From contig JAFGVN010000116.1 in assembly GCA_016937975.1 (NCBI GenBank), positions 1 to 38,414 of the forward strand: a stretch of DNA of 38,414 bases, read 5' to 3'. Numbering within the stretch: the stretch's first letter is position 1; every line of letters starts with the position of its first letter. Of this stretch, positions 20,570 through 33,569 are shown one piece after another. The notes beneath the pieces were generated by a model, which saw only the letters and a list, made by a program, of their open reading frames with translations, ran no database searches and had not been told where the DNA came from. The DNA comes from Clostridia bacterium. Its GTDB lineage: Bacteria; Bacillota; Clostridia; Peptostreptococcales; Acidaminobacteraceae. A program made the translations under genes and the position numbers.

Positions 20570-20599
20570 AAAATATACTTTAAAATCCTTTATATGAAC

Positions 20600-20640
20600 A
20601 AAGACTAAAAATATGATCACCGTATTTTTAGTCTTTTTAT
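20600..20640 (+). terminator. Long perfect hairpin closing rqcH, possibly bidirectional
   Basis: Fourteen-base perfect arms (20600-20613 and 20623-20636) with a nine-base loop are followed by TTTTTAT on the plus strand, a good terminator for rqcH. The hairpin also abuts the stop codon of the converging MEMO-like gene; on that strand the tail is TCTTTGTTC, weaker but usable. Confidence 0.85.
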
Positions 20641-21425
20641 TTTTCCAAGCCTATGAAAAAGTAGCTCGTGGTTTCATAAATTTTACTGTTAAAATAATCT
20701 TGAGAATTCCCTTGGTCAATAATTCTAATTGTCATATCATTTTGTTTTGCGTAGGATAAAAGAATATAAAGCACCCCCGGGGAATCCAAATAGGCATCGT
20801 CTAGAGAAAAAAAATGTTCAAATTGATTTGTTTCAATCCACTTTTTTGTGCTGCTATCAAAAATATCAGCTTCTTCATTAGTGTAATAGTGAGAAAAATC
20901 CACGGATCCTATTATAAAAACATTCTTAGGTAAATGACTTAAAAATTCATCAATGTGCTTTCTAGTTGTTTGTTTACTCACTGCAAAAACAGACAAATCG
21001 GCATTGGGAAAATATTTCTTGATATAGGGTATATGTACAAACAATCCATGTTCCTTTTGAATTTCAAAATCATCTTTAAAAACATAAGGCAGTGTATATA
21101 AGTCATTTAATTGTCCATGTGGGATCCAACCAAAATCTCCTTTATATCCCTTATCAGTCGTGAGTATTTCTCTATTGGTATTTGTAAAATGATCTGGGCT
21201 AAGTAAAATTACATGATCAACTTCATCTGATGCCGCGGCTTCATACATACCAAGTATTTTATCTAAAGGCACTAGATGGTGTGGAATGACCATACCACCT
21301 AGTGTTTTTGTTTCATAGACTAATGCCTGTGTCGTCTTTACCTCAACGGTTGGGAACTCTATAGACTGCTCATAACTTACGCAAGCACCCAGTATAAGCA
21401 ATAAACTGAGCAAAGCCTTTATCAT
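20637..21425 (-). CDS. MEMO/AmrB-like lipoprotein (AmmeMemoRadiSam system protein B family)
   Basis: The fold family is MEMO1/AmrB, related to extradiol-type dioxygenases; the bacterial function is not established. The alignment is clear by eye: VIPHHLVP, LLSPDHFT, KEHGLFVHIPY and GSVDFSHYY match the human MEMO1 blocks APHAGY, GPSHH, DEHSIEMHLPY and SDFCHWG. The MEMO1 metal-ligand cysteine (in TICGRHP) corresponds here to LDSPGVLYILL, with no Cys. Unlike typical family members, the N-terminus is a short signal ending LILGAC (Cys15), a plausible lipobox, so the protein is probably anchored outside the cell; that is the only cysteine. The ATG overlaps the preceding stop as ATGA, with GAGG upstream. 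No AMMECR1 or radical SAM partner is adjacent. Family assignment is fairly secure; activity is unknown. Confidence 0.82.
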   Translation of the reverse strand: MIKALLSLLLILGACVSYEQSIEFPTVEVKTTQALVYETKTLGGMVIPHHLVPLDKILGMYEAAASDEVDHVILLSPDHFTNTNREILTTDKGYKGDFGWIPHGQLNDLYTLPYVFKDDFEIQKEHGLFVHIPYIKKYFPNADLSVFAVSKQTTRKHIDEFLSHLPKNVFIIGSVDFSHYYTNEEADIFDSSTKKWIETNQFEHFFSLDDAYLDSPGVLYILLSYAKQNDMTIRIIDQGNSQDYFNSKIYETTSYFFIGLEK

Positions 21426-24400
21426 GGAGAAACCTCAAGCCATTGGGGTTTAGTCATCTCCAACTCACCTTCATAATACTGTTGAATATAGGCAGGTTCC
21501 CATTTGTATTTTCCAGCTTGTACTGCTTTTATATAATATTCTATCGTCCCAACAGTGTCTTTACTGTAAACACAAAAATGCAAGTCCTGATTTGTCACTA
21601 AATTCGAGAAATCATTGGTTTTGTTTTTCAAACCAGCATATTCAAACCCAGCTGGTATCCTATCATAAATTAAAATGTAGCTGTCTTTTGGCTTTTCATA
21701 TGATAGTGTGACACTTACAAGATCACCCGTTTGAATAGGATCTTTTTCATAGTTTCGAGTAAGATTTAGAGTTTGCGACTTATGTTGTGCATAATCCAAA
21801 CCTGTAACCAAATAATCTTCTAAGACCTTGATGTTGCCCTCCAGATCCAAAATTCTAAATTCGCTGTCTTTAGGTACTTTCACTTCTATACCTTCAAGTC
21901 CTGGCAATTCAATAGTTCGATTTTCACCATTGATAGTCAAAGAGACTTTTGCTTCTTTAAAAGTTAAAGGTTGATGCATCAAATAATAAATATTTTGCAA
22001 ACCAACAGTATCTTTTGAATCTTGCAATGTTGTATTGATATCAAAAGTTTTGATTTTTAAGTCTTGTGATAAAGTAGCTGCCAAAACTTGATTTTGCAAA
22101 ATTAGATTAGAAATATCGTCAAAATATCCTTCTGCTAAATTCAAGACTCTAGTTTTGTCCTTTAACTCATTTAGCGTTAATAAAATATACAATTTTGATT
22201 CATCACTTAATCCATCCCATGGATTAGCTTCTAAAAATGCATCTGTTAATAATAGTACGGGCTGTTCCTGTGATGCCAAGCCCCATAAGATCATCGTCTT
22301 TAATTCAATCGTTACATCAGGATCCAATAAACGTTCATTGAGATAATTTAAGATTAAGTGTTGATCAAAATATGCCATACCATATTTTGTCCCAGCAATA
22401 AGAGCTGTGGTTCGAATAGAAGAATCCGAGGTTTTTAAAAACTTCAAGCCCCCATCATAGTCTTGGAAATAACTGATATCCGGCATTTCATAGGATGTAT
22501 TTAAAAATTCATTCATAATTTTATAAACACCGTATCTTGCAACAATCTCCTCTAAACGCTCCGTATCATATTTAAAGCCATGATACAATTGGTCTACATA
22601 ATCAATTGCACCCTGATTTAAAAATCTCAAATTTGTTTCATCAGATGAATTTTGCAACACAAAACCTGTCGTTAACGTGGATTGTTTCAAATGATGGAAT
22701 CTTTCATAGGTTTCCCTTACAATCAAATCTGAAAGAATACCATCTTGATAACCATCTGTACGACCAGTCACTTCCAATTGATAATCACCTAAAGGTAAAG
22801 CACCTATACTTACTTGGGTCAATTTTTTATCATTAGCGGTTGTAGATTGCTCAGCTTTTACAAGACCTCCCTGAAGTAATTTTGCAGTATAGGTAATCAA
22901 ACCTTCATCATAATCATACCCATCTGATTTTAAAGACAGATAAACTTCATCGCCTTCCAAATAAGCATTATTGTAAAGACCTCTAATAAAGAAAGGTAAA
23001 TTCACATTAGAGTCAAGTTTTGCAGACGCATACTCTAAATCCTTATTCACAGCATTTAAAGTAATTCTCCAACCTGTGATATTATCTGGTAATTCAAAGT
23101 CCACTTCCGCTTTTCCATTAATCACTTCTACAGTTTTAAAGTAGGCTGTATCCTTAAAATCTTCACGAATAAAACTGTTATCGCCACCTTCGCCAGCTTC
23201 TGCCCCTGCGGTATCCATAGCATCTTCACTAGATACAGATTCTGAGATGATACCATCCGAATACACATATTGGTGGAGGTTTTGACCAAGATCAAAATAA
23301 TTCTCATAAAGTGCAAAGAATGCTTCATCCACAACTGAGATATTAACTTCACCATTAAAAGGCCTTTGATGATGATCCAATACTGTAATGGCTAAAGATA
23401 ACGCTTCTCCTGGACTATATAAAGTTTTATCGGTTTCAGCTATGATGGTACCTTCCAAGGTTTGATAGTCATATGGAATTAAAACACTGCCATATTCAGG
23501 CACAATGTGAAGTATTTTCCCATCAAAGTATATGGTTTTCAACATCATGTTTGGTCGATGATTTTCTTCAAATGTAAAGCTGATTTTTGGTTCTTCAGTT
23601 ACCTGATATGCTATAATGCCATCACGCATCAACAAATGAAGAGACAAATCATTAGCATTTTCAGGAATCTTATCATTGTAAAGCAAGACTTCTTTTTCCA
23701 CCGTATCACCAATATCATATGACACATCCTCATATGGAATAGTATATTGTTCTGAATAATTTAACCACCTAAAAATTTGAACGCCAACATTCGTATTCGC
23801 ACGTACATTTCTTCCAATTTCGTCTGTCGTTAAAATTTCAAGGGTATAATAATGATCCTCTTCAATGCCAAAATTAAAGTTACCAATCCCATTAACAGTT
23901 TCAATGGTTACAGAAGGTAACACATCTGACCGTCTTTCATAATGATAAACATCATAAGTTAGCTTGTGAATAGGGTCAAAATCTGTCTTCTCAAATATCT
24001 TTTCATAATAATGATCTGTAATATATACAGTAACTTCTTGATTTAAGGCTTCACCTTTTATATTTTCATAATTTGTTCCAAATGAACCTTGGTAATTTGA
24101 TAAATCTATTTTATAAGTACCCAAATTCACATTGGCCATCATTTGGTCTTCATCAATCTCATAATCACTTAAAATCATCATATGACGTGGTAAAACTGTT
24201 GTCATGGCTTGTGTATATAAATATGTACCCTCAATAGAATTATTATTTGCATATACTTCATGATAATTTGGATACCAGTACTCATCAGAATCTACGGTTT
24301 TAAAAGCAATATTTATTTCACCTTTTTCATCACTGGTATAGACATTTTGAGATTGTGATAAATCATAGCCTTCCACATTTACTTCCATGCCTTCATAAGG

Positions 24401-26086
24401 CATCTCGTTAAAATATGATGCTTTTACCTGATAATGAATCTCCTCTCCTGCAAATACAACGGGTTCTTCAATGCTACTGGTAAGCATAATTTCAGGTTTT
24501 TCATAATTCAAAATAAAGACTTCTCTAAAATCAATGATTTCATCTCCGGATTTTAAGGTCAATGTATAATAGCCCCAAGGTAAATCTTCAAAGGTCAGGA
24601 ATGATGTATAAGAATTATTTAAACTTAACTGTACATCCTTTTCCATAACCACTTCATCTGACCAGTATCTGGATAAAGACAATTTAAGCTCTTTCGGCTG
24701 CTGGCCATCGTAAGCTTGAACATATCCATAAGCATTGATTTCGTCTGTTGGTAAATAAGCTGTACGATCACTATAAAGGAAACTCCAATAATCAGAAGAT
24801 GTAAAATAACCATAATCATAGTAATACCAACCATATTGATTACCAGCATTGACAATATATGCTTTATCTTGAATTCTCATAACATAATAGGATGCTTCAT
24901 TTCCATCCTGAGGATTTCCAAAATAAACACCATCACCACTTGTTGATCCAATTAGAATTTCATCAGCATATATTTTTGCATTGTTTACTGCCGAGGCATT
25001 GTCAGAATCCAACACCCAGAAAAATAGACCATTCTTTGCTTTCGCAAAATAGATTTGATGAGGATCCAGTTGCAAGAAAGTATACTGCTCTACATCTTCA
25101 CCAATAATCTTCACAATGTATCTTCCAGAAGAAAATGCAGGAAGTTCTACATAACTCTCATAATTATAAGTGAAAGCTTGAAGCGGCTCATCAAAGACTT
25201 GATCCATTTGGGATAAGTCTAAATTCTCAGTATTTTGAATAAAATTATTATAGATTTCTAAGTAGCTCTCAAAGTCCTTTGCCTCATACACTGAGACTTG
25301 AAAATCAACAGGATCTCTCCATGTGTTAACTTTAATATAATTGGTTTGATCTGGCATTTGATTGACTACAGAATAATTGATATTCCAATTGTAATTGTCA
25401 CTATAGCCTGTATTAAATCCAAAGGTATAATCGTCATGCATCACCCGATTATCAATGGATAAACCAGCTTTCATCGTAACTTGATAATAGACGCCTGATC
25501 TTAAATTGACAGGCATAAAAACAACCGTGTCATCTTGATAAGAGAATTCTCCATCTACATGAGGTTCAATTGAAAAGTAATCTGAAATGTCTTCTATTCC
25601 TTTTGTATTAAATACAAGTTCGATGACACTTCTTGTTGGAACATCATAGGCATCTTTCCCAGGAAAAGATTGCACAATTTTTATATCGTCTATGGTTTGA
25701 AAGGCTTTCCCATAATTTAACGGGTCATATGTAAAACTATAAATTTTATTGTTGAGCAAAACGGTCTTAGGTCTAACGGTATATTTTATTTCATCTTCTG
25801 TTGTCAATGTAAATTCAATTTCAGGAATGATTTTCAAATTTTCATTTACGACTTCCAATGGTACTTCTTGATCAAAAGTCACCGTAAATGACGAATCCGG
25901 ATTAATACCATAATCCGTTTGTGAATTGGCAAAAACCTCAACTTTTTTTACCGTATTATCAAGTTCATCAACTACTGGTGTTTCAGAATTTATTGGTGTA
26001 TCATCTTTGTTTTTTTCATCTAAGTATAAATAAATTCCGATACCCACAACGGCAATGATTATTATTCCAATTATTAATTTCTTCAT
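21422..26086 (-). CDS. Alpha-2-macroglobulin-like surface protein lacking the thioester
   Basis: This 1554-residue protein is built like bacterial alpha-2-macroglobulins. An N-terminal signal anchor (LIIGIIIIAVVGIGIYLYL, residues about 4-22) has no lipobox. Two Big_5-type Ig-like domains follow (about 45-220). Macroglobulin domains carry SDRTAYLPTDEINAYGYV, ETDKTLYSPGEALSL and NISVVDEAFFAL. The A2M family block is IREDFKDTAYF through LPDNITGWRITLNAV (about 975-1025). A helical TED-like region (about 1140-1400) comes next, then a C-terminal beta domain with YDRIPAGFEYAG. The expected CxEQ thioester is absent: the matching stretch reads GFKYDTERLEEI near 1165. The only cysteine I see is near the C-terminus. 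AAGGAGG lies seven bases before the ATG. It sits two bases after a GNAT gene and overlaps the MEMO-like gene. Function is unknown; envelope protection or adhesion is possible. Confidence 0.88.
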   Translation of the reverse strand: MKKLIIGIIIIAVVGIGIYLYLDEKNKDDTPINSETPVVDELDNTVKKVEVFANSQTDYGINPDSSFTVTFDQEVPLEVVNENLKIIPEIEFTLTTEDEIKYTVRPKTVLLNNKIYSFTYDPLNYGKAFQTIDDIKIVQSFPGKDAYDVPTRSVIELVFNTKGIEDISDYFSIEPHVDGEFSYQDDTVVFMPVNLRSGVYYQVTMKAGLSIDNRVMHDDYTFGFNTGYSDNYNWNINYSVVNQMPDQTNYIKVNTWRDPVDFQVSVYEAKDFESYLEIYNNFIQNTENLDLSQMDQVFDEPLQAFTYNYESYVELPAFSSGRYIVKIIGEDVEQYTFLQLDPHQIYFAKAKNGLFFWVLDSDNASAVNNAKIYADEILIGSTSGDGVYFGNPQDGNEASYYVMRIQDKAYIVNAGNQYGWYYYDYGYFTSSDYWSFLYSDRTAYLPTDEINAYGYVQAYDGQQPKELKLSLSRYWSDEVVMEKDVQLSLNNSYTSFLTFEDLPWGYYTLTLKSGDEIIDFREVFILNYEKPEIMLTSSIEEPVVFAGEEIHYQVKASYFNEMPYEGMEVNVEGYDLSQSQNVYTSDEKGEINIAFKTVDSDEYWYPNYHEVYANNNSIEGTYLYTQAMTTVLPRHMMILSDYEIDEDQMMANVNLGTYKIDLSNYQGSFGTNYENIKGEALNQEVTVYITDHYYEKIFEKTDFDPIHKLTYDVYHYERRSDVLPSVTIETVNGIGNFNFGIEEDHYYTLEILTTDEIGRNVRANTNVGVQIFRWLNYSEQYTIPYEDVSYDIGDTVEKEVLLYNDKIPENANDLSLHLLMRDGIIAYQVTEEPKISFTFEENHRPNMMLKTIYFDGKILHIVPEYGSVLIPYDYQTLEGTIIAETDKTLYSPGEALSLAITVLDHHQRPFNGEVNISVVDEAFFALYENYFDLGQNLHQYVYSDGIISESVSSEDAMDTAGAEAGEGGDNSFIREDFKDTAYFKTVEVINGKAEVDFELPDNITGWRITLNAVNKDLEYASAKLDSNVNLPFFIRGLYNNAYLEGDEVYLSLKSDGYDYDEGLITYTAKLLQGGLVKAEQSTTANDKKLTQVSIGALPLGDYQLEVTGRTDGYQDGILSDLIVRETYERFHHLKQSTLTTGFVLQNSSDETNLRFLNQGAIDYVDQLYHGFKYDTERLEEIVARYGVYKIMNEFLNTSYEMPDISYFQDYDGGLKFLKTSDSSIRTTALIAGTKYGMAYFDQHLILNYLNERLLDPDVTIELKTMILWGLASQEQPVLLLTDAFLEANPWDGLSDESKLYILLTLNELKDKTRVLNLAEGYFDDISNLILQNQVLAATLSQDLKIKTFDINTTLQDSKDTVGLQNIYYLMHQPLTFKEAKVSLTINGENRTIELPGLEGIEVKVPKDSEFRILDLEGNIKVLEDYLVTGLDYAQHKSQTLNLTRNYEKDPIQTGDLVSVTLSYEKPKDSYILIYDRIPAGFEYAGLKNKTNDFSNLVTNQDLHFCVYSKDTVGTIEYYIKAVQAGKYKWEPAYIQQYYEGELEMTKPQWLEVSP

Positions 26087-26088
26087 AG

Positions 26089-26529
26089 CTACTCCTCCTT
26101 TACTTTACGCAAAGTATACCTAAAGGTATTAAAACCCTGTTTGTGATAAAAACTGATTACTTCTTCATTGCCAGTCGTAACATGTAAATCAATGATTTCG
26201 CATCCTTCTGATTCCAACCATAAAATCATTCGATTAAAGAGGTACCGTCCTAATCCATTACCTCTTAAATCATCATGAACGTATAATTCATGGACATAAC
26301 CATTGTTTTTGCATCGACTTCCAACACAAAATCCCAGTGGTGAATCATCAGAATAGACGACTTCTAATCGATACTTTTCACAAGCTTGAATTTCCTCTGC
26401 GAAATTTTCAAAGGTTTTGCGACTAAAATAATCACTGAAGTGACGTGAATGAATTTGTTTATGGCGATTAAGTATATCCCATAAACTTCTTATGACTTCC
26501 AAATCATCAACTTCCTTAATTTCCAACAT
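26089..26529 (-). CDS. GNAT family N-acetyltransferase
   Basis: The 146-residue protein has the GNAT fold, transferring an acetyl group from acetyl-CoA to an unknown amine. Motif A is clear as VHDDLRGNGLGRYLFNRMI (the RxxGxG pyrophosphate loop, about residues 85-105). The beta-5 region IIDLHVTTGNEEVISFYHKQGF follows (about 112-134), and the preceding strand has SPLGFCVGS. No signal peptide is present, so it is cytoplasmic. GGAGG lies eight bases before the ATG. It is the first gene of a unit with the alpha-2-macroglobulin-like gene (gap two bases) and the MEMO-like lipoprotein gene. Whether it modifies those products or is only a co-transcribed neighbour cannot be told. Confidence 0.88.
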   Translation of the reverse strand: MLEIKEVDDLEVIRSLWDILNRHKQIHSRHFSDYFSRKTFENFAEEIQACEKYRLEVVYSDDSPLGFCVGSRCKNNGYVHELYVHDDLRGNGLGRYLFNRMILWLESEGCEIIDLHVTTGNEEVISFYHKQGFNTFRYTLRKVKEE

Positions 26530-26607: not shown

Positions 26608-26687
26608 TATCTATTCCCATTGTATCAAATGGATATCACTTGTAGAAGTATTTGGAAATTTTCTTAATAATTGTCATGCAAATGAAA

Positions 26688-26714
26688 TAAAAAAATACCA
26701 ATATGAATTGGCAT
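26688..26714 (-). terminator. Rho-independent terminator of the glycogen operon
   Basis: Eight-base arms ATGCCAAT and ATTGGTAT (one G-U pair) with a four-base loop (26695-26714) lie 12 bases past the pulA stop. A run of seven or more T follows on the minus strand. Confidence 0.8.
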
Positions 26715-26726
26715 CTTTCTTTATTT

Positions 26727-28592
26727 TTAAATTTTATATTCTTTATCTGGAGTGGATACAAAAACAGCTGTTGAGAGTTTTGGAACAATCCAATTATGGT
26801 CTACAATTTTAACGTTTTCCTCATAATACAAAGCCCCATCAATTCTTAAATCAATACCCTCTTCAGGTATTAAGACTTGAGAGTATCCACCATTAAAGAC
26901 CATCTTAATCTTTTTATAATCTGTTGAAAAAGGACTCTCAATGTCATAGTGAATGACATCCCCTTGAGATACAACAATTGTAATGGCTTTTTTTATAGCT
27001 TCAGGATCTTCTAGTTCGAAAACTCTTTGAGATTTTCTAAATTCAATTAAAGTCTTTACATAATCATAAACATGTCTAAACTTACTTTTATTTTCCCAAT
27101 GAATTCTGTTCACGTGATAACTACTTTTATAACTGTTATGATCACCATATTTGCTTCTTAAAAATTCTGTTCCAGCTTGCAAAAAAGGAATGCCGAAGGA
27201 CAATAAGATTAATGAAAGGGACAAAGCATTCATATTCTGTTTGTCTTCAAAAGTAGCTGTTGGAAATGCCTTAGAGAACTTATCCATTAATATCAAGTTG
27301 TCATGACTCGAAACATAATTAATGGTCTCAGATGCTTTTTTTGTAAATCCTATAATTTCTTTTGAAAATGAAATACTGCCAAAACATCCTGCGTATACAT
27401 CATCTTTCCGATATTTACCATGACCTACAAACCCTGAATCACTGCCATCGTTACTACCTTTTATTGCATTTCTAAAATCATCATTGAACAACGCTATATT
27501 CTTTTGTTTACCTTTTTTAAATTGCTTTTCATCAGGCAAACCACTTGGACCTCCTGTCCATGGTTCTCCATAAAGGATTAAATCAGGCTTAATAGCTCTT
27601 AGTTCCTTTTGCATTTGTTCCACAAAGTTAATATCGTATAATGCCATTAAATCAAATCTAAAGCCGTCAACTTTATATGTGTTCAACCAAAATTTCAAGG
27701 AATCAATAATAAATCTTCCTACATAAGGGTGTTCAGTATCAAGTTCATTTCCGCAACCTGAGCCATTGTAAAAAATATCCTCATGGGTTCTATGGAAAAC
27801 ATAGGGCATTAGTCGATGAAAATTAGAAGTTCCACCAAAATAAGTATGGTTATAAACCACATCTAAGACCACTCTAATGTCTAACTCATGCAGGGTTTGA
27901 ATCAAGGTTTTAAGTTCCAGTATTCGACATTTTGGATCATCTGGATCTGAAGCATAACTGCCTTCAGGTGCATTATACAAGTAAGGATCATATCCCCAGT
28001 TATATCCTTTTTCATCATAATCATTTACGGTGATAAAGTCATAAATTGGCAATAAATGTACATGAGTAATCCCTAGATCAATTAAATGATCAATACCAAT
28101 AACTTGATTCTTATAGGTCAATCCTCTTTCTGTAAAGGCAGCATACTTCCCTTTGTTTTCAAAAGGGACTTCCTCGCCACTTGAAAAATCATTGACATGA
28201 AGTTCATATAAAATGGATTGAGTAAAAGGAATGGTTTTTGGAACTTCATGGTCTAAAAATCCTACAGGATTTATAGTATTGGCATCAAGAATTGCACCTT
28301 TTGTACTGTTGGCATTTGCGCTATGTACATAAGGATCCACAATTTCATAATGATCATCAATTAAATAAGTATAAAATTGACCTTCTAAGTCTTCTTCAAT
28401 TTTGAATCGCCAGATATCGAATTTTTCTTTTACCATTTCATAGGTTTTAAATCTAACTGCTCCTGCAGTCCTGTAAATTCTGAGTTGAATTTTTTTGGAA
28501 GAAGGAGACCAAATGCAAAATTGCGTTTGACCTCCTTGCAAGGTAACCCCATATCTTTCATTCAACACTTGTTCAGGAATTGAATTATTCAT
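26727..28592 (-). CDS. pulA: Type I pullulanase (glycogen debranching)
   Basis: The enzyme hydrolyses alpha-1,6 branch links in glycogen or limit dextrin. The 621-residue protein has an N-terminal CBM48-like domain (about 10-110, VTLQGGQTQFCIWSPSSK) and a GH13_14 catalytic barrel. Signature motifs are YNWGYDPYLYNAPEGSYA, DVVYNHTYFGG, the nucleophile in GFRFDLMALYD (Asp near 313), the acid/base in LYGEPWTGG (Glu near 340), and VSSHDN (Asp near 430). There is no signal peptide, so it is intracellular, which fits glycogen breakdown with GlgP, 12 bases upstream. The ribosome binding site is weak (AGAGAAG). It is the last gene of the glycogen operon. Confidence 0.94.
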   Translation of the reverse strand: MNNSIPEQVLNERYGVTLQGGQTQFCIWSPSSKKIQLRIYRTAGAVRFKTYEMVKEKFDIWRFKIEEDLEGQFYTYLIDDHYEIVDPYVHSANANSTKGAILDANTINPVGFLDHEVPKTIPFTQSILYELHVNDFSSGEEVPFENKGKYAAFTERGLTYKNQVIGIDHLIDLGITHVHLLPIYDFITVNDYDEKGYNWGYDPYLYNAPEGSYASDPDDPKCRILELKTLIQTLHELDIRVVLDVVYNHTYFGGTSNFHRLMPYVFHRTHEDIFYNGSGCGNELDTEHPYVGRFIIDSLKFWLNTYKVDGFRFDLMALYDINFVEQMQKELRAIKPDLILYGEPWTGGPSGLPDEKQFKKGKQKNIALFNDDFRNAIKGSNDGSDSGFVGHGKYRKDDVYAGCFGSISFSKEIIGFTKKASETINYVSSHDNLILMDKFSKAFPTATFEDKQNMNALSLSLILLSFGIPFLQAGTEFLRSKYGDHNSYKSSYHVNRIHWENKSKFRHVYDYVKTLIEFRKSQRVFELEDPEAIKKAITIVVSQGDVIHYDIESPFSTDYKKIKMVFNGGYSQVLIPEEGIDLRIDGALYYEENVKIVDHNWIVPKLSTAVFVSTPDKEYKI

Positions 28593-28604
28593 ATTCTTCT
28601 CTTT

Positions 28605-31013
28605 CTATTTTGGTACACGATCGACTTCCCAAATGCCAGTTGCATATTCTTGTATGGTCTTGTCACTGGAGAAGAAGCCTGAATGAGCAATATTGGTAAT
28701 TACCATCTCAGACCATCGATCTTCATCTAAATAATAGCCATCTATTCTCTTTTGAGCTTTTGCATAAGAATCGAAATCCTTTAATACAAAATATTCATCA
28801 GAGTAAACCAATGAGTCATATATAATTTGAAATTCTTCTGAGTCTTCTCCTAAGAATCCATTTATTAATTGTTCCAATACTTTTTTAAGTCTTGGATCGC
28901 CTTCTATAATCTCATGGGTATTGTACTCATGAGTTTCATACAATCCATAGACTTCTTCTTCTGTCAAACCGAACAACACAATATTATCTGTACCAACTTG
29001 TTCATGAATCTCAACATTTGCACCATCAAGTGTTGCAATGGTAACAGCGCCATTCATCATGAATTTCATGTTGCCCGTTCCAGAAGCTTCTTTGGTAGTC
29101 GTTGAGATCTGCTCACTGACATCTGCTGCAGGAATTAATATTTCTGCCAAAGAAACGCCATAATTCTCCAGGAATACAACTTTTAGTTTATCTTTAATCC
29201 TCGTATCGTTGTTAATCTTTTCAGCTACAGTGTTTATAAGTTTTATAGTTTGTTTTGCAATATAATAACTCGGTGCCGCCTTTGCTGCAAAAATAAAGGT
29301 TCTCGGTACAAAGGACATATCAGGATTCTCAACGAGTTGATTGTACAAATACATAATATGCAGTACATTTAAAGTCTGTCTTTTATATTCATGCAATCTT
29401 TTGGCATGGACATCAAAAATGGAATCAGGGTTAACCACAATATTATTGTGTTTTAAAATATATGCGGCTAATGCTCGTTTCTTCTGTTGTTTGACTTCAA
29501 ATATTTTCTCTCTAAATTCATGATTGTGTACATACTTCATTAAATCTCTTAATCTCTGAGGGTCTCTAATCCAATAATCACCAATATAATCCGTTATAAG
29601 TTTGGATAACTCCGGATTGGAATTTAACAACCATCTTCTATGGGTAATGCCATTGGTCTTGTTGTTGAACTTACCAGGGTAAATATCATAGAAGCACTTT
29701 AACTCTTTATTTTTTAGTATCTCTGTATGAAGTCTAGCAACACCATTAATGGAATGACTCCCTACAATAGCCAAATGGGCCATTCTGATTTCACCATTGC
29801 CTACAATTGCCATTTCATTGATATGGGATTGAGGCTTATTGTATTTCTCAATGAGATCTAAGCAGAAACGACGGTTAATCTCCTCAATAATCATAAAAAT
29901 TCTTGGCAAAAGTTGAGAAAACATTGGAATTGGCCAACGTTCAAGTGCTTCTGACAAAATAGTATGATTCGTATAGGAACATGTTTTTTCCGTGATACTC
30001 CAAGCTTCATCCCAACCTAATTTTTCTTCATCCATTAAGATACGCATCAACTCTGGAACCGCCATACTTGGATGGGTATCGTTTATATGAATGGAAATAT
30101 AATCATACAATTTATTCACTGGTTTTTCAAGCTTTTTGAAGGACCTTAGGATTCCTTGAAGCCCTGCAGATACAAAAAAATATTCCTGCTTCAAACGTAG
30201 AATCTTACCTTCGTCATAACTATCGTTTGGATATAAAACCTGGGAAATAGACTCCACATCATACTTCTTCTTGAAGGCATCAATGTATTCACCACGTGAA
30301 AAACTACTGTAATCAAAGCCTCTGTTAACGGTTTGTGCTGACCATAGTCTCAACGTATTAACCGTTTTATTATGGTAACCAACAATAGGTGTATCGTATG
30401 GTACTGCAAGGACTGGCGATGTATTAATGGTTTTATAAACACCATCCTCTATAATAACTTCACCATAAAAATGGACTTCTACTGCCTTGTCTTCTTTCTT
30501 GACTTCCCAGACATTTCTATTGTGCAGCCAACGATCTGGAAACTCAACCTGATAACCATTGATTATTTTTTGTTCAAACAAACCATAGTTATAACGTATA
30601 CCACAACCGTGACCAGGAATAGCCAAAGCTGCCATAGAATCTAAAAAACATGCTGCCAATCGCCCTAGGCCACCATTACCCAAACCCTGGTCTTTTTCAA
30701 TTTCAGCCACATCTTCCAGATCAAAACCAAGATCTTCAAATACTTCCTTAGCAATATCCAAATAGCCAGTGTTTATCAAATTGTTAATAAGGAATTTACC
30801 CGTTAAAAATTCAATGGAAAAGTAAAAAACTTGTTTTGAAGCTTTATCGTTGTATCGCTCGTTTGTTTCCACCCAATGCTTTGTAGCGTATTCTCTCACT
30901 AAACTCGCTAAGGCATGATATTTATCCCACCTTGAAGCTTCTTCTATTGTTCGGCCACTTTTATTGGTCAGTTTATTGATATAATCTTCTTTAAAAGCCG
31001 CTTTTGATTTCAT
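28605..31013 (-). CDS. glgP: Glycogen/alpha-glucan phosphorylase
   Basis: GlgP releases glucose 1-phosphate from the non-reducing ends of glycogen. The 802-residue protein (GT35) matches the family length of about 800. Visible motifs: FSIEFLTGKFL near 70, LGNGGLGRLAACFLDS, HINDTHPSMAVPELMR, TNHTILSEALERWP, and the PLP site EASGTGNMKFMMNGA with the cofactor lysine near 649. AAGGTG precedes the ATG. It lies 10 bases after glgA and 12 before pulA, so the two breakdown enzymes are adjacent. No sign of truncation. Confidence 0.97.
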   Translation of the reverse strand: MKSKAAFKEDYINKLTNKSGRTIEEASRWDKYHALASLVREYATKHWVETNERYNDKASKQVFYFSIEFLTGKFLINNLINTGYLDIAKEVFEDLGFDLEDVAEIEKDQGLGNGGLGRLAACFLDSMAALAIPGHGCGIRYNYGLFEQKIINGYQVEFPDRWLHNRNVWEVKKEDKAVEVHFYGEVIIEDGVYKTINTSPVLAVPYDTPIVGYHNKTVNTLRLWSAQTVNRGFDYSSFSRGEYIDAFKKKYDVESISQVLYPNDSYDEGKILRLKQEYFFVSAGLQGILRSFKKLEKPVNKLYDYISIHINDTHPSMAVPELMRILMDEEKLGWDEAWSITEKTCSYTNHTILSEALERWPIPMFSQLLPRIFMIIEEINRRFCLDLIEKYNKPQSHINEMAIVGNGEIRMAHLAIVGSHSINGVARLHTEILKNKELKCFYDIYPGKFNNKTNGITHRRWLLNSNPELSKLITDYIGDYWIRDPQRLRDLMKYVHNHEFREKIFEVKQQKKRALAAYILKHNNIVVNPDSIFDVHAKRLHEYKRQTLNVLHIMYLYNQLVENPDMSFVPRTFIFAAKAAPSYYIAKQTIKLINTVAEKINNDTRIKDKLKVVFLENYGVSLAEILIPAADVSEQISTTTKEASGTGNMKFMMNGAVTIATLDGANVEIHEQVGTDNIVLFGLTEEEVYGLYETHEYNTHEIIEGDPRLKKVLEQLINGFLGEDSEEFQIIYDSLVYSDEYFVLKDFDSYAKAQKRIDGYYLDEDRWSEMVITNIAHSGFFSSDKTIQEYATGIWEVDRVPK

Positions 31014-31023
31014 ATGTCACCTT

Positions 31024-32439
31024 CTATAAACTCTCGTATAAAGCTTTATAAGCTAAGGCGGACTTTTCCCAAGAGGTATCTAGTCTCATAATTCTTCTTA
31101 CCATTTCACGCCAGTTGGTTTTATCCTCATAAAGTTCTAATGCTCTTTTCACTGCAAACAACATTTCATGGGCATTGTAACTACCAAAACTAAATCCTGT
31201 GCCTTCATTGGTAAACTTGTTATAAGCTTGTACTGTATCTCGTAATCCACCAGTTTCTCTTACAATTGGTACCGTACCATATCTTTGTGCAATCATTTGA
31301 CTAAGACCACAGGGTTCAAATAAACTTGGCATTAAAAACATATCCGCGCCAGCATAAATTTTATGAGCCAAAGGTTCATCAAAACCAATATATACTGCTA
31401 AATTTTCATAATGAGCAGAGAAATGAGACAACATGTCTTCATATTTCTTTTCACCAGTTCCCAAAACAACCAATTGTACATCAAGTTGAAGCATCTCTTC
31501 AATGATCCGCTCTACTAAATCCAAACCCTTTTGATCTGCCAGTCTGGTAATCATGGCTATAAGGGGAGCTTTCGACTTTTTAAGATGCATTAATTCCTGT
31601 AAATCCTTTTTATTTTCAGCTTTCTTTGAGGAATTCTTATCATTGTAATGGGTTGTGATATTAGGATCTGTTTCAGGATTGTATATGCCAAAATCTATAC
31701 CATTTAAAATACCATGGAGCTTATATTCTTGATTTCTAATTAAATCATGAAGTTGTTCTCCGAAATAGGGTTCCTTGATTTCAGTAGCATAGGTTTCACT
31801 CACTGTCGTTACAGCATCAGAGAAAGTAATGCCACTTTTCATAAAATTGACATTGCCATAAAATTCTACAGCACCTGAATTAAACTCACTTAAATCCATA
31901 TTTAGCAGTTCACCCATCACTTTAGGATCAAAAATGCCTTGATATCTTAAATTGTGAATGGTGAAGACTGTTTTAATCTTTTGAAATTTTTCTACATGAC
32001 TGTAATGCTTTTTCATTAAAAGAGGAATCATGGCTGTATGCCAATCATTGATATGAATAATATCCGGTTCAAAGTCAATGGCATTTAAAACCTCAAGAAC
32101 ACCTCTACAAAAGTATGAATATCTTTCACCATCATCATAATGACCATAAATACCTTCTCTTTTAAAATAGTATTCATTGTCAATGAACAAATACTCCATA
32201 CCCTCATAAATAGTTCTACTTAATCCTAAATACTGCTTACGCCAACCCACTTCGACTTCCAAGTTCATCAAATGTTCTTCATCGACATTTACGGCTTTGT
32301 TGTGAAAATTCCTTGAAGTGATGATTTTAACCTCTACACCTTCTTGAATTAAAGCTTTTGGCAAGGCATAAGCAACGTCCGCAAGTCCACCTGTTTTTGA
32401 AAAAGGTACAACTTCAGCTGATACAAATAATACTTTCAT
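31024..32439 (-). CDS. glgA: Glycogen synthase (ADP-glucose type)
   Basis: GlgA extends alpha-1,4-glucan chains from ADP-glucose. The 471-residue GT5 protein has the N-terminal ADP-glucose motif SKTGGLADVAYALPKAL (KxGG at about 15-18), the HINDWHTAMIPLLMKK block, TIHNLRYQGIF, NGIDFGIYNPETD, and the C-terminal SLFEPCGLSQMIAQRYGTVPIVRETGGLRDTV region with the conserved Glu. GGAGG lies four bases before the ATG. It follows glgD by 11 bases. Confidence 0.97.
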   Translation of the reverse strand: MKVLFVSAEVVPFSKTGGLADVAYALPKALIQEGVEVKIITSRNFHNKAVNVDEEHLMNLEVEVGWRKQYLGLSRTIYEGMEYLFIDNEYYFKREGIYGHYDDGERYSYFCRGVLEVLNAIDFEPDIIHINDWHTAMIPLLMKKHYSHVEKFQKIKTVFTIHNLRYQGIFDPKVMGELLNMDLSEFNSGAVEFYGNVNFMKSGITFSDAVTTVSETYATEIKEPYFGEQLHDLIRNQEYKLHGILNGIDFGIYNPETDPNITTHYNDKNSSKKAENKKDLQELMHLKKSKAPLIAMITRLADQKGLDLVERIIEEMLQLDVQLVVLGTGEKKYEDMLSHFSAHYENLAVYIGFDEPLAHKIYAGADMFLMPSLFEPCGLSQMIAQRYGTVPIVRETGGLRDTVQAYNKFTNEGTGFSFGSYNAHEMLFAVKRALELYEDKTNWREMVRRIMRLDTSWEKSALAYKALYESL

Positions 32440-32450
32440 AGGTCCTCCAT

Positions 32451-33569
32451 TTATACCTTCGAATTTTTAGCAATGACAAAAGGATGCTCAACATCACCAT
32501 TAAAAACTCTTTTTTCACTTACATCTACATTTTTATCTAATATCATGTAATTAATATTGGCAGTTTCACCAATTTCACAGTTCTGCATAATCACTGAATT
32601 TCTGACTATAGCACCTTTTTTTACATGTACACCACGAGATAAAACTGAATTTTCAACGACCCCTTCTATGATACAACCAGAACTTACTAAGGCGTTTGAA
32701 GTATATGAATCATCGGCATAGAAGGTTGAGGGTTCATCTTTTATTTTTGTATAAATCAATGCATCAGAATGGAATAACTCTTCTTGCACTTCAGGTAACA
32801 GCATATCCATATTCGCCTTATAATAATTCTGTATCGAGTTAATACAAGCCAAATATCCTTCAAAGGCAAATCCTTTAATATCTAATTCTCCTATTTGTTT
32901 GAATATTGCTTGTTTTAAAAAATCAACATCCCCTAAGTGAATGGATTCTTCAATGAGTTCAACTAGAAGTTCGCGCTTCATGATATACATTTCCAAGGAT
33001 ACATTGTAAAATTTCTTTTTGCCTAAGTTCTTACCAATGCTAATGATACTGTCATTTTCATCAATGTTTACGGTATCACAATCTATAAATCTTCTGACAT
33101 GATTGTTCATTCTCTTATAAAGTACTGTTATATCAGCACCTGTTTCTTTGTGATACTCCAACATAGGTAAAAAATCCACATTGCAAACCATGTAACTTCT
33201 GGTTAACAAAACATACTCTTGCTTTGAACCTTTAATAAAACCAAGCATACTGTTAAATATTTCAATATCACCTTTTTTTTGAACAATATCAATAGATGAT
33301 GCTTCTGGATGAAAATAATACAAGCCATCTTTCTTACGATCTAAATCCCAATATTTTCCTGAACCTACATGGTCATATAATGATCTTGCCTTTCCCTGTG
33401 TACAAATTGCAATATTACTCATACCACTATTCACCATGTTGGATAAAATAAAGTCTATGACACGATAACGACCACCAATTGGAATGGAACCAATCGTTCT
33501 AATCTCTGTTAAACTTTTTAACTTTTCTGTTGAAGCGCTTAAATTGATAATCCCCATTAATTCATTCAT
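32451..33569 (-). CDS. glgD: GlgD, non-catalytic glucose-1-phosphate adenylyltransferase subunit
   Basis: GlgD partners GlgC in Firmicutes to form the ADP-glucose pyrophosphorylase heteromer; GlgD is mainly regulatory. The 372-residue protein keeps the nucleotidyltransferase fold (IPIGGRYRVIDFILSNMVNSG) and the C-terminal left-handed beta-helix (SNALVSSGCIIEGVVENSVLSRGVHVKKGA). The catalytic loop GGxGSRL of GlgC is replaced by a sequence around LSASTEKLKSL, and the metal-site GDHIYNMDY by SYMVCNVDF, so it should not be catalytic by itself. AGGAG lies six bases before the ATG. It follows glgC by nine bases. Confidence 0.95.
   Translation of the reverse strand: MNELMGIINLSASTEKLKSLTEIRTIGSIPIGGRYRVIDFILSNMVNSGMSNIAICTQGKARSLYDHVGSGKYWDLDRKKDGLYYFHPEASSIDIVQKKGDIEIFNSMLGFIKGSKQEYVLLTRSYMVCNVDFLPMLEYHKETGADITVLYKRMNNHVRRFIDCDTVNIDENDSIISIGKNLGKKKFYNVSLEMYIMKRELLVELIEESIHLGDVDFLKQAIFKQIGELDIKGFAFEGYLACINSIQNYYKANMDMLLPEVQEELFHSDALIYTKIKDEPSTFYADDSYTSNALVSSGCIIEGVVENSVLSRGVHVKKGAIVRNSVIMQNCEIGETANINYMILDKNVDVSEKRVFNGDVEHPFVIAKNSKV

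Follow-up and report, generated by a model that had tools for sequence, protein, structure and literature searches.

Why would a giant macroglobulin anchored at the cell surface be encoded in overlap with a predicted exported protein of the MEMO family, and does the acetyltransferase gene packed against them belong to the same system? These questions are raised by a locus on contig JAFGVN010000116.1 of a Clostridia bacterium (assembly GCA_016937975.1), of which we analysed a stretch of 38,414 nucleotides (nt), hereafter the window. The first-pass annotation had read three genes here as one unit, a GNAT acetyltransferase, an alpha-2-macroglobulin (A2M)-like protein and a MEMO-like lipoprotein, joined by a 2-base gap and a four-base ATGA overlap, and had suggested that the last two act together at the cell surface. 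The list of open reading frames (ORFs) of the window reproduced all three coordinates exactly, all on the minus strand, and both junctions, including the 2-nt gap between the GNAT stop and the A2M start. We found that the A2M and the exported MEMO protein form a conserved two-gene pair, made up as follows (lengths in amino acids, aa).

21422..26086, minus strand: membrane-anchored, thioester-less A2M, 1554 aa, core gene 1 of the pair (ORF, Pfam, profile and model)

20637..21425, minus strand: exported MEMO-family protein, 262 aa, core gene 2 of the pair (ORF, PF01875, TIGR04336 and AlphaFold2 model)

21422..21425, minus strand: ATGA stop/start overlap at the A2M/MEMO junction (sequence; a -4 overlap also occurs in 36 of 81 distinct pairs)

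Searches of the family sample with MEMO and with A2M matched the same 8 of 41 genomes (5 of 21 genera), with the two genes side by side; the A2M of genome G004 is split over two contigs, one of which carries MEMO. MEMO profile searches were made at order, class and phylum level, with the window's own genome included in each count. They matched 11 of 297 genomes of the order (eight of them the family genomes and one, G122, an ordinary fusion) and 7 of 391 of the class. Among 398 genomes of the phylum, 29 hold an exported MEMO, 31 a full-length A2M and 29 both (Fisher p 5e-42, uncorrected for relatedness), and the genes are adjacent in 28 of the 29 genomes that hold both. A reverse search of the same 398 genomes with an A2M profile gave 55 genomes with any match at E 1e-20, and the 31 with a full-length protein were the 29 MEMO genomes plus G973 and G385. 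In 43 of 45 loci (the window and 44 relatives) A2M lies directly upstream of MEMO on the same strand, the two exceptions being L038 (G122, the ordinary MEMO-AMMECR1 fusion) and L102 (G939). This adjacency spans 17 families of the phylum sample (G939 left out), to which the order and class samples add four.

A wider scan of named genomes covered the best 80 of 272 relatives by similarity to the window's MEMO, which is not a random sample. Duplicate removal left 109 loci, 107 of them with a MEMO match; 81 of these are paired with an A2M in the same locus and 26 are not (L038, L102, L145, L153 and 22 long MEMO proteins). The pairs come from Bacillota and from numerous lineages of Patescibacteria, and the order is A2M, then MEMO, in all 81. 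With start codons set by choosing the longest ORF, 54 pairs overlap, 36 of those at -4 nt, and 75 have a gap of at most 100 nt, while the six larger gaps, of 138 to 1305 nt, include broken A2M frames. Because this order recurs across phyla, the pairing is more than chance. These results demonstrate, at the level of sequence, a pair conserved in partnership, order and overlap. The gene order and co-occurrence check that the first-pass annotation had called for thus carried the pair well past very close relatives, and adjacency across 17 plus four families and Patescibacteria strongly supports its suggestion of a link between the last two genes at the cell surface. A plasmid search for MEMO returned one Rhizobium amrB only.

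The second gene of the pair belongs to the MEMO family by profile score (Pfam PF01875 Memo, 30.6 bits against a cut-off of 27; NCBIfam TIGR04336 AmmeMemoSam_B, 58.2 bits against a cut-off of 26). Its AlphaFold2 model (predicted local distance difference test, pLDDT, 91) has human MEMO1 as the nearest solved structure (Z 23, root-mean-square deviation 2.7-3.0 over 226-230 aligned residues, VIA-align on the model), followed by the extradiol dioxygenase group (Z 14-17.5). The features that bear on its export and its predicted metal site are the following.

21381..21425, minus strand: MEMO residues 1-15, signal peptide with lipobox LGAC (sequence)

21279..21281, minus strand: MEMO His49, counterpart of the human MEMO1 Fe ligand H49 (invariant; alignment to MEMO1)

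21189..21191, minus strand: MEMO His79, counterpart of the human Fe ligand H81 (invariant; alignment to MEMO1)

20784..20786, minus strand: MEMO Asp214, candidate third ligand in place of human C244 (invariant)

Across two overlapping sets, H49, H79, S174, D176, F177, S178, H179 and D214 are invariant (43/43 and 51/51), and H126 is present in 43/43 of one set and in at least 90% of the 51 in the other. Most of the sequence is divergent, with a mean column identity of 28% (alignment A3). The Fe ligands of human MEMO1 are reported to be H49, H81 and C244, the third position being taken by Glu in LigB enzymes (PMC11081632). Since D214 stands just before a helix near the expected position of the third ligand, the exported MEMO likely has a two-His-one-carboxylate site with D214 as the candidate carboxylate.

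Of 81 paired MEMOs, 79 begin with a hydrophobic stretch and 30 match a loosely defined lipobox. The term "MEMO-like lipoprotein" therefore suits the window's protein, with its LGAC motif, while the trait of the family is the hydrophobic N-terminus and not the lipobox. A separate AMMECR1 gene, in a frame of 424-521 codons, was present in 25 of 27 pair genomes tested (from 43 known), and in the window genome AMMECR1 likewise sits in another gene, on contig C96. Three relatives of this frame, read by eye, are LigB/MEMO-like, two of them with an AMMECR1-like tail, and each lies beside a radical-SAM-like frame. Because such a frame exists elsewhere in pair genomes, the exported MEMO is an extra, separate branch, and we rejected the idea that it is an ordinary AmrB with an accidental signal. 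A search for ordinary MEMO/LigB proteins gives counts that are lower bounds, since it sampled 388 genomes rather than 398 and did not pick up the MEMO of the window itself; only G791, G863 and G956 overlapped the list of full-length A2M genomes, and all three also hold the exported type.

The first gene of the pair encodes a protein with MG2, A2M_BRD and A2M domains above Pfam cut-offs and with bMG10 and Big_5 just below them. Its sequence alone gave a chance match only in the PDB (E 0.58), and a profile of 13 homologs matched the E. coli YfhM and Salmonella A2M structures at E 1e-18 to 4e-18. A model of residues 760-1554 (pLDDT 83, predicted template modelling score 0.64) matched A2M/complement structures by Foldseek with E down to 1e-34; TM-scores on query length were low, at 0.16-0.42 among the matches listed, which probably reflects a different arrangement of the domains. 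Three features of this protein carry the argument that follows.

26015..26086, minus strand: A2M residues 1-24, uncleaved-signal/transmembrane anchor (MKKLIIGIIIIAVVGIGIYLYLDE; sequence)

22547..22558, minus strand: A2M residues 1177-1180, RLEE in place of the CxEQ thioester motif (alignment with 8 CxEQ A2Ms)

23168..23233, minus strand: A2M residues 952-973, Gly/Glu-rich bait region, then invariant Arg974 (model disorder and conservation)

The window's A2M has practically no cytoplasmic part, and a hydrophobic N-terminus was found in 74 of 75 full-length A2Ms. In the same 75 proteins, 73 of them with MEMO, the thioester Cys column holds Arg in 69, the final Gln of CxEQ is present in 65, and CxEQ is kept in six, all from Patescibacteria. 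The six CxEQ-bearing paired A2Ms score 208-272 bits against the profile and the other full-length ones of that search at least 955, so MEMO pairs with two kinds of A2M. All eight A2Ms examined from genomes with partial matches and without exported MEMO have CxEQ (8 of 24 such genomes). The six pairs that keep CxEQ weaken the idea that MEMO replaces the lost thioester; they also speak against thioester loss as a diagnostic of MEMO pairing, although 8/8 unpaired A2Ms carry the motif.

Two further observations concern A2Ms other than the one in the pair. Loci L240-L247, in genomes without exported MEMO, show that the phylum has a further kind of A2M: all eight carry CxEQ together with a YYGGADK motif in the bait, and in seven of the eight a 263-352 aa frame precedes the A2M. 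Second A2M-like matches also lie elsewhere in G690, G952, G1032 and G973 (one family), in frames of 1143-1376 codons, that of G952 with an internal stop.

The predicted bait region is disordered in the model at residues 952-970 (pLDDT <50) and is conserved at A962 (40/41), E963 and G965 (41/41 each), with R974 invariant. In 10 of 75 A2Ms, all from Patescibacteria and all paired with MEMO, an insert of ~129 aa falls exactly at the bait (L146, L147, L135, L157, L185 and L189, all scanned with Pfam, and L148, L159, L176 and L181). Hint families were matched in all six scanned inserts, that of L135 falling slightly short of the PT-HINT cut-off and equalling the one for Vint, and the A2M of L138, which has no insert, gave no Hint match in Pfam. 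Cys1, TxxH and the terminal HN are kept in 10/10 inserts and the next residue is never Cys, Ser or Thr, a pattern that fits self-cleavage without splicing. The position of these inserts points to cutting of the bait as the key event.

These data lead us to a reading that is tentative, although close to an even call: the window may hold one copy of a widespread two-gene surface system, in which an anchored thioester-less A2M would work as a bait-triggered trap or sensor with the exported MEMO as its dedicated metal-dependent partner. The A2M would meet proteases that reach the cell surface, and cutting of its bait would change its shape so that the protease is held non-covalently, by analogy with what is reported for MagD. 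The exported MEMO would bind the A2M, using a metal held by two His and probably one Asp, and would act on a surface or wall-associated substrate once the A2M fires. A minority of the relatives encode, behind an extracytoplasmic function (ECF) sigma gene, an A2M that has an extended cytoplasmic N-terminus and is probably an anti-sigma sensor. The model for the trap is MagD, a type II A2M of P. aeruginosa, which is reported to hold a protease although it lacks the thioester and to depend on an operon partner for its stability (PMC5764988). MagD and its six-gene mag operon share with the pair an exported, thioester-less A2M with a bait and operon partners (PMC5764988). Here, in contrast, the partner is a MEMO-family protein, the A2M has its own N-terminal anchor and Arg at the thioester Cys, and the hosts are Bacillota and Patescibacteria; the window has GNAT, MEMO, glycogen and NFACT genes as neighbours in place of a magA-F operon.

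Several results weigh against this proposal. The bait is conserved and not variable, unlike a general protease lure. The measure of export signals separates controls poorly, since four ordinary controls scored 0.58-1.59, three of them 1.44-1.59, against a threshold of 1.6. Our attempt to equate D214 with C244 by sequence failed, as three MAFFT modes placed D214 opposite Glu or Gly of AmrB and never its Cys. G973 and G385 have a full-length A2M without a MEMO match in the phylum search (and none after A2M in the loci read), and G939 (L102) carries the two genes on different contigs, so an A2M may stand by itself or apart from MEMO. MEMO, too, has a setting of its own, because 22 of 107 MEMO loci hold a long form with no A2M within the locus. 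Finally, human MEMO1 is reported to have shown no dioxygenase activity (PMC11081632).

The long forms are found without A2M in the locus in Spirochaetes and one Myxococcaceae, and together with A2M in four Collierbacteria. In a quick tree, all 22 long forms without A2M in the locus fall to one side of a branch with weak support (53), and the Collierbacteria fall elsewhere. Pfam scans of ten long MEMO proteins identified PGA_cap (CapA/PgsA-like) in eight, two of them paired with A2M, and none in the other two; of the eight scanned long MEMOs without A2M in the locus, six have it. The C-terminal fusion of PGA_cap to MEMO was seen in L146, L181, L151, L186, L130, L141, L191 and L196, and a DUF3160 protein adjoins it in L130, L151 and L186.

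The long forms also bear on an alternative that we consider unlikely, in which MEMO would have no catalytic role and would help the A2M to assemble or stay stable, in the way MagB does for MagD, with its fold kept as a scaffold. Strict pairing and the divergence of most of the MEMO sequence would suit such a factor, and stabilisation by an operon partner has a precedent in the Pseudomonas type II A2M (PMC5764988). However, the small set of invariant residues includes those of the metal site, which a pure scaffold would not need, and the long forms exist without A2M in the locus.

A system that mainly signals, transmitting bait cleavage or the binding of a ligand across the membrane with trapping as a side role or none at all, is about as improbable as the scaffold. 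In its favour, a sigma gene lies directly upstream, at -26 to +15 nt, of ten A2Ms, namely every one of the nine in which the first hydrophobic segment begins no earlier than residue 62 and L209, in which it begins at residue 34 (L095, L096, L101, L110, L111, L112, L115, L160, L208 and L209; the N-terminus of L095 is partly masked). These ten upstream genes exceed the Pfam cut-off for Sigma70_r4_2 in 10/10 and for Sigma70_r2 in 9/10, and eight of the ten A2Ms are paired with MEMO (L208 and L209 are not). The conserved bait and the thioester missing in 69 of 75 A2Ms also agree with signalling. In contrast, no more than 10 of the 75 full-length A2Ms have a recognised sigma gene next to them (the others judged by eye, some of their loci ending there), and the window's A2M has almost nothing on the cytoplasmic side with which to signal. 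Pfam recognised no anti-sigma domain in six cytoplasmic N-termini and gave sub-threshold DUF4179 matches in two (E 0.1 and 0.27), so that the probable anti-sigma role of the sigma-linked A2Ms is deduced from their position.

The trap-or-sensor reading can be extended to a form of surface surveillance resembling complement, which we offer as speculation. Cutting of the bait by the protease of an intruder or competitor, or by the protein's own Hint domain, would throw a conformational switch that engages the exported MEMO metal enzyme and, in some lineages, frees an ECF sigma factor; in members with Hint inserts, the bait cysteine might form a fresh thioester in place of the lost one.

It is improbable to a greater degree that the two genes stand together for shared expression only, with no joint function, since overlapping genes are common in compact operons but would not explain a near-perfect co-occurrence across many families or a pairing with A2Ms both with and without the thioester.

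How do the two proteins compare with the known members of their families? The window's A2M has the MG2, bait and A2M domains and the fold of its class, with RLEE where type I proteins have CxEQ, and the combination of a bait with no CxEQ is that of type II. With type I A2Ms (E. coli YfhM and Salmonella A2M, often beside a PBP1c gene), the A2Ms described here share macroglobulin domains and fold, but most have lost CxEQ, the six Patescibacteria pairs excepted, and they adjoin MEMO; no PBP1c gene lies beside the window's A2M. The exported MEMO resembles AmrB/MEMO1 of the AMMECR1-MEMO-radical SAM set in profile score, fold, His ligands and the EH and SxDFxH motifs, but differs in its export, its PHH motif, the invariant Asp214 and its presence in addition to a separate AMMECR1 gene. 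AmrB proper is cytosolic and lies beside or is fused to AMMECR1, whereas the window's MEMO carries an export signal and no AMMECR1 or radical SAM gene adjoins it. Finally, LigB-type extradiol dioxygenases share its fold and possibly a two-His-one-carboxylate site; oxygenase chemistry is nevertheless doubtful, because many of the named hosts are strict anaerobes.

Both families are known, and the window is a new example of a widespread, apparently undescribed pair of known parts. We found no description of A2M paired with an exported MEMO in the open-access literature, which is no proof of absence, and no paper there joining a macroglobulin with AmmeMemoRadiSam, the MEMO1 family, a Hint domain, PGA_cap or an anti-sigma factor. 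Nor did any paper there bring together two of AmmeMemoRadiSam, the MEMO1 family, the Hint domain and PGA_cap. What MEMO1 primarily does at the molecular level is described as unknown (PMC11081632). A near-obligate partner, with order and overlap kept across phyla, gives a concrete handle on the role of the exported branch of the MEMO fold, and MEMO is a type of partner new to bacterial macroglobulins. The idea that a macroglobulin can act as a sensor becomes directly testable in those relatives that have an ECF sigma gene next door or whose bait contains a self-processing domain.

The remaining question, whether the acetyltransferase belongs with the pair, is answered by its distribution. It and the two hairpins that flank the trio are located as follows.

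26089..26529, minus strand: GNAT acetyltransferase, 146 aa, a genus-only neighbour outside the conserved unit (ORF; Pfam Acetyltransf_1, 63 bits)

20600..20636, no strand assigned: hairpin between MEMO and the convergent NFACT gene (terminator score on the plus strand; weak U run on the minus strand)

26680..26722, minus strand: terminator-like hairpin closing the upstream glycogen gene cluster (fold z -5.5)

A GNAT relative adjoins A2M in the window's genus only (G000, G029 and G030), at spacings of 2 nt in the window and -4 and +1 nt in two congeners. Matches among the ORFs of the A2M/MEMO loci were confined to these three genomes, with none at the other loci, and in five other genomes of the family distant GNAT homologs lie on other contigs or are absent. 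We therefore rejected GNAT as a component of the system and regard it as a genus-level neighbour. A genuine three-gene functional unit that includes the acetyltransferase is thus very improbable, its close spacing to the A2M gene in each of the three genomes from the genus being outweighed by its absence from the other loci.

The trio lies between the glycogen genes upstream and the convergent NFACT gene downstream, and had been described as bounded by terminators on both sides. Both hairpins are far more stable than shuffles as minus-strand RNA (z -5.5 for 26680-26722, with a U run after the hairpin; z -4.8 for 20592-20640, with a weak U run), which upholds the structures themselves. Their reading as terminators of the trio fares less well, as the consensus scan found no excess in the window (4 against a shuffled mean of 4.8), omitted the upstream hairpin and scored 20600-20636 on the plus strand only, i.e., on the NFACT side. 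The glycogen cluster, at window positions 26727-33569, encodes an amylase-family enzyme, a phosphorylase, a synthase and a nucleotidyl transferase, and its last two genes also lie upstream of GNAT-A2M-MEMO in both congeners, as judged by frame size and by eye.

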